Assembly: GCF_039655775.1 (NCBI RefSeq)
Contig: NZ_JBBYXJ010000001.1
Span: 496,001-560,000 of the forward strand
Reading direction: 5' to 3'
DNA length: 64,000 nucleotides
Source of the DNA: Iodidimonas sp. SYSU 1G8
GTDB lineage: Bacteria; Pseudomonadota; Alphaproteobacteria; SMXS01
Shown here: positions 18,740-21,440 of the stretch, one piece after another
Numbering within the stretch: the first letter of the stretch is position 1
Layout: each line of letters begins with the position of its first letter
Notes under the pieces: model-generated
Database searches by the model: none
The model's input: only the letters and a program-made list of their open reading frames with translations
Told to the model about the DNA's origin: nothing
Translations under genes and position numbers: made by a program

Positions 18740-19885
18740 TCAGAAACCCGGCTCATCCAGGTCTCGGGCGACCCGGAAGCCCTGATCGGCGCGTCTTTCG
18801 CCCGCGTCAGCGCGCAGGCGCCGCGTCGTGCGCAGATTGACCGGCGGATCGAACCAGCCGCCCCCTCGGCTGACCGCCGCCCCGCAATCACCGGTCATGC
18901 GCGCCGCGCCATCCTGCGCGACATCCCGGTACCCATTGTTCCAGCAGTCGGCGGTGAGCTCCCGCACATTGCCATACATGTCGTAAAGGCCGAAGGCGTT
19001 GACCTTGTACTGGGCCACGGGCGAGGTCTCGGCATGCCGCGCGTCGCAGGCGAAGATCATCGAGGTGGGCCGCCCCTTGTATCGCGACATGAAGGTGCTC
19101 CCGGCCACATTGGCGTGGGTGCACGCGGCCGTCATGTCATTTCCCCAGACATAGGCGCCCGTCACGCGCGCCCGCGCGGCATATTCCCATTCGCTTTCCG
19201 AGGGGAGTCTGTAGGCCACGCCAGCCTTCTCCGACAGCCAGTCGACATAGGCTTGCGCGTCCGTGCGGCTGACGCAAACCACCGGATGGTCTTCGTCCTG
19301 ATAGAAGCCGGGATCGCGCCAGCTCTTGCCCAGGTCGAAGACCCAGTCCGTGCCATTGAAGACGGTGCAGCCGGCAGCCTGGTGGCCACTGTCCTTGACG
19401 AAGGCCTCGAACTGACGCCGGGTGACTTCCGTCTGCTGAAGAGCGAACGGCTTCTGGAATGTAACGCCGTGGGCCGGTGATTCCGACGCGATCATGGAGG
19501 GCGAGACGCCGCTGCCGCCGGCCTCGTCAGCGCGGACGCCCATCGAGAAGCTGCCGGCGGGAACGACCACCAGAGGCGGACAATCGGCGCAGTCGCGCCG
19601 CATGGCCGGACCGCCTCCCGGTGGTGGAGGCTCCAGGCGCTCGACTGGCGCCTCAGGTAGCGCGAGGACCGGTGGCGCGTCTTGGGGCAACTCGGCGGGA
19701 GGCGCGCTGACGACAGGCACATCCTCGGGCTGTGCGCCGAAGAAAAAGGCTAGTGCGAACGCGGCGATCAGACCGACGACGACAGCCACGGCGACCATGG
19801 CCGCGATCTTGACGTTGGCCTCGAGACGTTTCTCGGGCGTTCGCATCCGGTAGTAGTAGACGCGACCCTTTTTCTTTTCGGCCAT
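18740..19885 (-). CDS. Membrane-anchored SUMF1/FGE-fold protein, copy 2
   Basis: The 381-residue protein has a basic cytoplasmic start, one membrane helix (about residues 27-50), a proline-rich linker and a SUMF1 (formylglycine-generating enzyme fold) domain: PPLVVVPAGSFSMG, QTEVTRRQFEAFV, HPVVCVS, YRLPSESEWEYAARA, and GGGWFDPP to the final GFRVAR. True FGE has two copper-binding cysteines in an SYCxRYRC-like segment before the final GFR; here the aligned segment VNLRTTRRLR has none. It is thus probably not an FGE. It starts two bases after the end of its paralogue, in the same operon. Confidence 0.88.
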   Translation of the reverse strand: MAEKKKGRVYYYRMRTPEKRLEANVKIAAMVAVAVVVGLIAAFALAFFFGAQPEDVPVVSAPPAELPQDAPPVLALPEAPVERLEPPPPGGGPAMRRDCADCPPLVVVPAGSFSMGVRADEAGGSGVSPSMIASESPAHGVTFQKPFALQQTEVTRRQFEAFVKDSGHQAAGCTVFNGTDWVFDLGKSWRDPGFYQDEDHPVVCVSRTDAQAYVDWLSEKAGVAYRLPSESEWEYAARARVTGAYVWGNDMTAACTHANVAGSTFMSRYKGRPTSMIFACDARHAETSPVAQYKVNAFGLYDMYGNVRELTADCWNNGYRDVAQDGAARMTGDCGAAVSRGGGWFDPPVNLRTTRRLRADAGERRADQGFRVARDLDEPGF

Positions 19886-19887
19886 GA

Positions 19888-20985
19888 TTACTGGCCAGTG
19901 CCGGCCAGCGGCACATCCCTGGCGATCCGAAAGCCCTGATCGGCGCGGCGTTGTCCCAGGTCCTCCCTGAACCGGCGCGCGGGACGTACGTTCGGCGGCG
20001 CGTCGAACCAGCCGCCGCCCCGAGCGACCATGGTCTCGCAGGCGTCCACCGTGCGTGCCGCCGACCCCAGCTCCTTGCCCCAGTAGCTGGGAGTCCAGCA
20101 ATCGGCCACGATCTCCCGGACATTGCCGTAAAGGTCGAATACGCCCATCGGGTTGGCCTGATAATGGGCGACCGGCGCGGTGTAGACGTATCCCGTCTGG
20201 CAAGGAAAGAACATGAGGGCAGTCTTGCTGGAGAAGCGGGCGGCATGGCTGCGGTCGGCGACGTTGCCGTGCGCGCAGGCGAGGGCGGGCTTGTCACCCC
20301 AAGGGTGGGCGCCGTCCAGTCCGGCGCGGGCCACGTACTCCCACTCGGTCTCCGAAGGAAGCCTGTAGCGCTTGCCGGTCCGCCGCGACATCCACTCCGC
20401 GAATGCCGTCGCATCGGCGTGGTTGACGCACACCACGGGGTGGTCTTCCTCCTGCTCGAAACCGGGATCCCGCCAGCTCTTCGACCGGTCCGAGACCCAG
20501 GAGTTCCCATCGTGCACCACACAGCCCAGCGCCTGATGTCCGGTCTCGTTGACGAAAGCCTCGAACTGCGCCCGGGTTACCTCGGTCTGTCCGAGGGCGA
20601 AGGCATGCTTGATGGTGACGCCGTGAACGGGGGCCTCGCTCTGCTGCTGCATCAACGGCACGTTGTCGGCGAGAATTTCCTCCTGCCGCAATCCCATGGT
20701 GAAGGCACCGGCGGGAATGGTGACCAGCATGGGACAGTTGGGGCAATCCTTGAAGGCGGTCACCGCTTCGCTGCCAGTGGCCGCATCCGCCGTCGGTTGG
20801 GCGGGGAGCGTCTGGACCTTTTGGGGCTCTGGAGGGGCCTCGGGCGTGTCGCGCGAAAAGATGAACAAGGTGATCAGGACGCCGATCACGACGACGACCG
20901 CTAGCACGCCGCTGATCACGGCGGCCAGCTTGCCTTCTTTTCCGACCGCCTCGTAGCGGCCTCGCGGTGTAATGGGTTCTCTCAC
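19888..20985 (-). CDS. Membrane-anchored SUMF1/FGE-fold protein, copy 1
   Basis: This 365-residue paralogue of the next gene has the same architecture: a single membrane helix at about 22-45, a linker, then a SUMF1 domain opening with FKDCPNCPMLVTIPAGAFTMG and including QTEVTRAQFEAFVNETGHQ, HPVVCVNHADA, YRLPSETEWEYVARAG, LYGNVREIVADCW and GGGWFDAPPN to GFRIARD. As in its partner, the FGE copper cysteines are missing. The domain probably faces the periplasm. The shared DCxxCP motif just before the domain may form a disulfide or bind metal. No sulfatase gene is nearby. Confidence 0.88.
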   Translation of the reverse strand: MREPITPRGRYEAVGKEGKLAAVISGVLAVVVVIGVLITLFIFSRDTPEAPPEPQKVQTLPAQPTADAATGSEAVTAFKDCPNCPMLVTIPAGAFTMGLRQEEILADNVPLMQQQSEAPVHGVTIKHAFALGQTEVTRAQFEAFVNETGHQALGCVVHDGNSWVSDRSKSWRDPGFEQEEDHPVVCVNHADATAFAEWMSRRTGKRYRLPSETEWEYVARAGLDGAHPWGDKPALACAHGNVADRSHAARFSSKTALMFFPCQTGYVYTAPVAHYQANPMGVFDLYGNVREIVADCWTPSYWGKELGSAARTVDACETMVARGGGWFDAPPNVRPARRFREDLGQRRADQGFRIARDVPLAGTGQ

Positions 20986-21032
20986 GGTGCCGAGCTTAGC
21001 TCAAATTGGTCCGAAAGGAACGCGCGCGGGGG

Positions 21033-21440
21033 TCAACGCGCGCGATACAATTTGAAAACGCCGCTCATGGTCGCGACCAGCGCGCCATCCGCCGTGATGG
21101 TGCCATGGGTAAAAGCCAGGCCGCCGCCCATGCGGTCGATGATGCCGGCTCCCTCCAGCCAGGTGCCCAGCTTGGCGGCGCCGATGAAGTCCGTCGTCAG
21201 ACTGACGGTCGAAACGGCCTCCAGTGTCTCGTCCGAGACCACCAGGCCGAAGCTGAGGGCCACATCCGCCATGGTTGAGATGATCCCGCCATGGGCCATG
21301 GCGCGCAGATTCATGTGCTTTTCCTCGAGTGGCAGGCCGATGATCGCACGACCGTCGCGCACGGACTCGTAGAAGGGGCCGACATGGTTCAGATGGGTGC
21401 TGCGGAAACGAAGTGGGGAAAAGCCTGCGGGAATGCTCAT
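21033..21440 (-). CDS. PaaI-like hotdog-fold thioesterase
   Basis: The 135-residue protein is a single hotdog domain with the family catalytic segment MAHGGIISTMADVALSFGL near residues 48-66 and the second-strand block VSLTTDFIGAAKLG. Members hydrolyse acyl-CoA or aryl-CoA thioesters as dimers or tetramers in the cytosol; the acyl substrate cannot be told from sequence. It lies upstream of the two SUMF1 genes on the same strand with a gap of 47 bases, so cotranscription is possible but not proved. Confidence 0.85.
   Translation of the reverse strand: MSIPAGFSPLRFRSTHLNHVGPFYESVRDGRAIIGLPLEEKHMNLRAMAHGGIISTMADVALSFGLVVSDETLEAVSTVSLTTDFIGAAKLGTWLEGAGIIDRMGGGLAFTHGTITADGALVATMSGVFKLYRAR

Follow-up and report, generated by a model that had tools for sequence, protein, structure and literature searches.

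Judged from their sequences, the two adjacent genes described here encode PvdO-like SUMF1-fold proteins of a known DCxxCP branch, which occur in this organism as a conserved membrane-anchored tandem. We favour a model, held at a probability of about 0.5, in which the pair forms a heteromeric, inner-membrane-anchored PvdO-like unit for binding a ligand or partner in the periplasm. Gene 1 (P0002; GTG start, 365 residues) lies upstream of gene 2 (P0001; ATG start, 381 residues) in the 64,000-nucleotide window, the whole stretch of DNA analysed, and two bases (TC) separate the stop of the former from the start of the latter (Table 1). Both products comprise a basic N-terminal tail, one predicted membrane helix, a variable Pro/Ala-rich linker, a DCxxCP motif (DCPNCP in gene 1 and DCADCP in gene 2) and a complete PF03781 domain that begins at the motif. 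The open reading frames and the PF03781 profile thereby bear out the description in an earlier note of adjacent paralogues 2 bp apart, each with a single helix, linker, motif and full SUMF1 fold. The profile match scores 187.6 and 187.1 bits against a gathering threshold of 23.3 and spans positions 2-255 of 255. The C-terminal hairpins read RGGGWFDAPPNVRPARR...GFRIARD in gene 1 and RGGGWFDPPVNLRTTRR...GFRVARD in gene 2. AlphaFold single-chain models give confident predictions for the domain and for the greater part of the helix. The flanking genes are unrelated housekeeping genes, and a terminator-like stem 3' of the upstream PaaI-like gene, found by pattern match only, suggests that the pair may be transcribed as a separate unit.

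Table 1. Coordinates of the gene pair and its features within the window.
Feature	Position	Strand	Basis
Gene 1: N-in anchor and PvdO-like SUMF1 domain	19888..20985	-	PF03781 E 5.8e-55; best PDB match 5hha (PvdO), E 9.7e-43; AF2 mean pLDDT 88.7
Gene 2: N-in anchor and PvdO-like SUMF1 domain	18740..19885	-	PF03781 E 4.1e-55; best PDB match 5hha (PvdO), E 1e-45; AF2 mean pLDDT 88.4
Gene 1 predicted cytoplasmic N-terminus, conserved (VREPITPRGRYEAVGKEGKL)	20926..20985	-	Identity and codon counts; topology from positive-inside rule
Gene 1 predicted membrane helix, about residues 21-45	20851..20925	-	Hydrophobic stretch; model helix 16-44
Gene 1 DCPNCP motif	20731..20748	-	D80, C81 and C84 invariant in 40 aligned homologues
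Gene 1 SUMF1-fold domain	19918..20736	-	PF03781, residues 84-356; model against PvdO 5hha, Z 35.1, rmsd 2.4 over 258 residues
Gene 1 Asp328, at first FGE copper cysteine position (Glu in PvdO)	20002..20004	-	Alignment; Asp in 6/6 gene-1 proteins
Gene 2 predicted cytoplasmic N-terminus, conserved (GRxYYYRMRTPEKRLE)	19808..19885	-	Identity and codon counts
Gene 2 predicted membrane helix, about residues 27-50	19736..19807	-	Hydrophobic stretch; model helix 18-49
Gene 2 DCADCP motif	19577..19594	-	D98, C99 and C102 invariant in 40 aligned homologues
Gene 2 SUMF1-fold domain	18764..19582	-	PF03781, residues 102-374; model against PvdO 5hha, Z 35.4, rmsd 2.1 over 256 residues
Gene 2 Asp346, at first FGE copper cysteine position (Glu in PvdO)	18848..18850	-	Alignment; Asp in 6/6 gene-2 proteins
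Terminator-like stem at end of upstream PaaI-like gene	21021..21044	-	Pattern match only

The closest solved structure by sequence is PvdO of the pyoverdine pathway, with FGE (SUMF1) reaching an E-value of only about 1e-16, and the ranking is the same when the models are compared structurally. PvdO scores Z 35.4 (gene 2) and 35.1 (gene 1), FGE 30-32, SUMF2 and PorK about 27, and EgtB about 22, so that for both models PvdO exceeds FGE by about 3-4. PvdO shares with the pair the DCxxCP start, the SUMF1 fold, a periplasmic location (predicted for the pair), the lack of FGE cysteines and an acid within a W-x-[DE]-x-P motif, but is encoded by a single gene in the pyoverdine cluster whereas the pair is a tandem with membrane anchors. 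The pair is also distinct from PvdO proper. PvdO is the top NCBIfam match (NF051459), yet at 189.3 and 184.0 bits both proteins score below the equivalog cut-off of 500. A 112-row tree, obtained by a quick search and weakly supported along its backbone, unites the pair with its orthologues (support 100), apart from FGE and outside the clade of seven Pseudomonas PvdO rows (support 100). Within a 51-row set containing one FGE reference, a tree constrained to join the pair with FGE was rejected (p-AU 0.016), while a sister position to PvdO was not (p-AU 0.60) and scored slightly above the free search. PF03781 is the sole domain found in either protein, with no DinB/EgtB iron-binding domain, and neither falls in an FGE or sulfoxide-synthase clade, the placement named in the earlier note as contradicting its inference of non-catalytic or differently catalytic proteins. 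That the two are not FGE enzymes is supported by the rejected grouping and by the absent cysteines.

FGE shares with the pair the PF03781 fold and the RLPxExEWEYAAR, GN-x-x-E and GFR motifs, but differs in its cysteine pair and genomic context. The two copper-binding cysteines, C336 and C341 in human and C272 and C277 in S. coelicolor (numbering partly from PDB titles), had been assigned by the earlier note to an SYCxRYRC stretch; they belong instead to the C-x4-C of CHxSYC. The correction leaves the conclusion unaffected, as neither protein has a cysteine in either column or elsewhere in the hairpin. What does not hold is the suggestion that this lack makes the proteins unusual. Among 129 aligned rows, gathered through their resemblance to the proteins of the pair and so representing relatives of these rather than the whole superfamily, cysteine at either column occurs in the FGE reference alone and in none of the 128 relatives, while DCxxC is present in 89 and in PvdO itself (KDCKDCP). 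Both traits are thus the norm in the PvdO-like branch, to which the two proteins belong by their motif ahead of the domain and their missing FGE cysteines. The tempting inference that absent FGE cysteines mark an oddity is thereby corrected, since all relatives aligned here, PvdO included, are without them. FGE activity is rejected on the missing cysteines together with the tree. Other members of the fold are also thought to act without formylglycine formation, namely human SUMF2, a paralogue of FGE, and GldK/PorK, the latter being lipoproteins that belong to a machinery for gliding and secretion, which is not seen here. The EgtB, OvoA and SenA sulfoxide or selenoxide synthases resemble the pair in their C-terminal SUMF1-like half. 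Separately from the pair, the genome carries genes of an ordinary ergothioneine type, in which EgtB precedes an EgtD-like methyltransferase (L120:5192-7660, contig C1).

The first FGE cysteine position is occupied by Asp in 12/12 pair proteins from six genomes and by Glu in PvdO, where the residue presumably matters; across the family it may be D, S, T, N, E or another residue. The literature searched yielded nothing on Glu-260 of PvdO, and the comparison of Glu with Asp rests on alignment. By analogy with the kept Glu of PvdO, the kept Asp of the pair could serve in catalysis, a point against the binding model favoured here.

Four congeners (G001, G003, G005 and G006) carry orthologues of both genes with order and surroundings preserved, at identities of about 56-66% between orthologues and 45-53% between paralogues. 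These identities to syntenic orthologues, the PF03781 E-values and a dN/dS of 0.14 and 0.15 for the two copies, calculated from the closest pair of genomes and indicative of purifying selection, exclude chance. In another genus of the same family (G007), a tandem at the corresponding locus with identities of 40% and about 36% is likely the counterpart of the pair. Its first gene groups with gene 1 (support 92-94); its second protein, which is divergent and finds no firm position in the tree, has an N-terminus (YLRLRYQERR) resembling that of gene 2. The two copies form separate supported clades that stem from one old duplication: support is 100 over all 11 rows, and 99 and 96 when each copy is taken within the genus. 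In one congener with a complete genome, G002, the PaaI-like and biotinyl-carrier genes are immediate neighbours; both copies are missing there and the flanks are intact. Synteny, purifying selection and joint absence from G002 together indicate a cassette of long standing that is maintained and can be dispensed with as a whole. Retention and loss as a pair fit a joint function, although the joint absence concerns a single genome and one chance deletion could have removed adjacent genes together. Of the recurrent neighbours sought around homologous loci, none matches the locus of the pair, where the conserved neighbours can be put down to simple synteny across the genus and some of the family.

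The N-terminal tails are paralogue-specific and conserved at least as well as the domain. Across five congeners the mean pairwise identity of the gene 1 tail is 0.90, against 0.34 for the linker and 0.71 for the domain; for gene 2 the tail (residues 1-26) stands at 0.78, the linker at 0.24 and the domain at 0.68. Differences in the tail codons are mostly synonymous, with 74 synonymous to 28 non-synonymous in the first 25 codons of gene 1 and 87 to 24 in the gene 2 tail, so the constraint acts on the protein. No second copy of the gene 2 tail was found in the genome. This conservation suggests that the tails may meet a partner at the membrane or inside it, or may serve to pair the two proteins with each other.

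Our preferred model is that this small bicistronic cassette yields two bitopic inner-membrane proteins, each with its N-terminus probably cytoplasmic and its SUMF1-fold domain periplasmic, a predicted topology that agrees with the earlier proposal of periplasmic, membrane-anchored proteins. The two domains would combine into one heteromeric unit and use the pocket equivalent to the FGE substrate pocket to bind a ligand or a partner protein, binding being favoured over catalysis, while the paralogue-specific tails probably hold the pair together or tether it to a third protein in the membrane or the cytoplasm. Lacking the copper cysteines, the pair would not make formylglycine.

DCxxCP relatives elsewhere are often found in tandem (L009, L015, L016, L020, L024, L026, L027 and L028, among others), with three or more members at L016, L026 and L028. 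An independent conserved tandem of the same fold occurs in other proteobacteria at L015:5896-7819, L024:4917-6855 and L027:4922-6855; each member has a clade to itself, and this duplication therefore predates those lineages. Secreted DCxxCP SUMF1-fold proteins adjoin an FAD amine-oxidase-like gene in other proteobacteria at L016:3988-9030, where a Tat-type molybdopterin-binding protein is also adjacent, L026:4012-9392, L028:4057-8391 (minus strand) and L033:5842-10443, possibly as a periplasmic oxidation cluster. Other DCxxCP SUMF1 domains are fused to caspase domains or to Ser/Thr kinases with peptidoglycan-binding domains, as in L031:4198-6777 and L043:3099-5672, where the SUMF1 domain is C-terminal. 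Such fusions are what one would expect if the module had an accessory or sensing role. None of these FAD amine-oxidase-like, molybdopterin-binding, kinase or caspase neighbours is found at the locus of the pair.

An alternative that we regard as possible but rather doubtful is a PvdO-like oxidoreductase, in which at least one of the two domains oxidises a substrate in the periplasm, whether phenolic, dihydroquinoline-like or peptide, via the acid at the first FGE-cysteine position. PvdO, which functions in dihydropyoverdine oxidation and in whose absence dihydropyoverdine builds up, is the nearest characterised relative and a grouping with it is not rejected, the acid is shared as Glu in PvdO and Asp throughout the pair proteins, and the four oxidase-adjoining loci described above would suit such a role. 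However, the window pair has no oxidase beside it, the variability of the position across the family argues against a general catalytic residue, and purified PvdO was itself inactive with no detectable cofactor (PMC6206403). A pyoverdine role for the pair is ruled out, since a profile search of the genome found no NRPS condensation domain (PF00668). The strong conservation of the tails relative to the linkers, and the fusion of related domains to kinases and caspases, would also suit a membrane-spanning receptor whose periplasmic domains sense a ligand and whose tails signal to a cytoplasmic protein. This appears improbable given that a kinase or regulator is absent at the locus and that tails of merely 20-26 residues could be insertion or assembly signals. 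Slightly less probable still is its more specific form, a two-subunit transmembrane receptor of duplicated PvdO-like domains in which the tails, TPRGRYEAVGKEG in one protein and GRxYYYRMRTPEKRLE in the other, connect ligand binding in the periplasm with a putative cytoplasmic partner.

The sulfatases of these genomes raise one further reading, an unusual sulfatase-maturation system in place of FGE. The earlier remark that no sulfatase is nearby stands for the genes examined, at about 13.6-25.7 kb of the window, but the genome does encode a Cys-type (CSPTR) sulfatase on the other contig (contig C2:1286637-1288268; L128, L140). This complete genome has no FGE recognisable by PF03781, whose matches are the pair and EgtB only, and no anaerobic maturase (TIGR03942). 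We nevertheless consider such a system very improbable. Both FGE cysteines are absent, and the sulfatase shows no evident signal sequence, in contrast to the predicted periplasmic location of the pair. With this one sulfatase as query, no match was found in G001 or G005, which carry the pair, whereas G002, which lacks the pair and shows no recognised FGE-like match, does have a CSPTR sulfatase. On this one query the sulfatase and the pair do not travel together, and a link between them is rejected. In G006, a congener with several sulfatases, a canonical FGE gene (CAENYC) lies beside one of them.

The preferred reading remains a heteromeric binding unit anchored in the inner membrane. If the pair does work as a unit, it would represent a compact, deletable two-gene cassette for PvdO-like domain roles outside siderophore synthesis.
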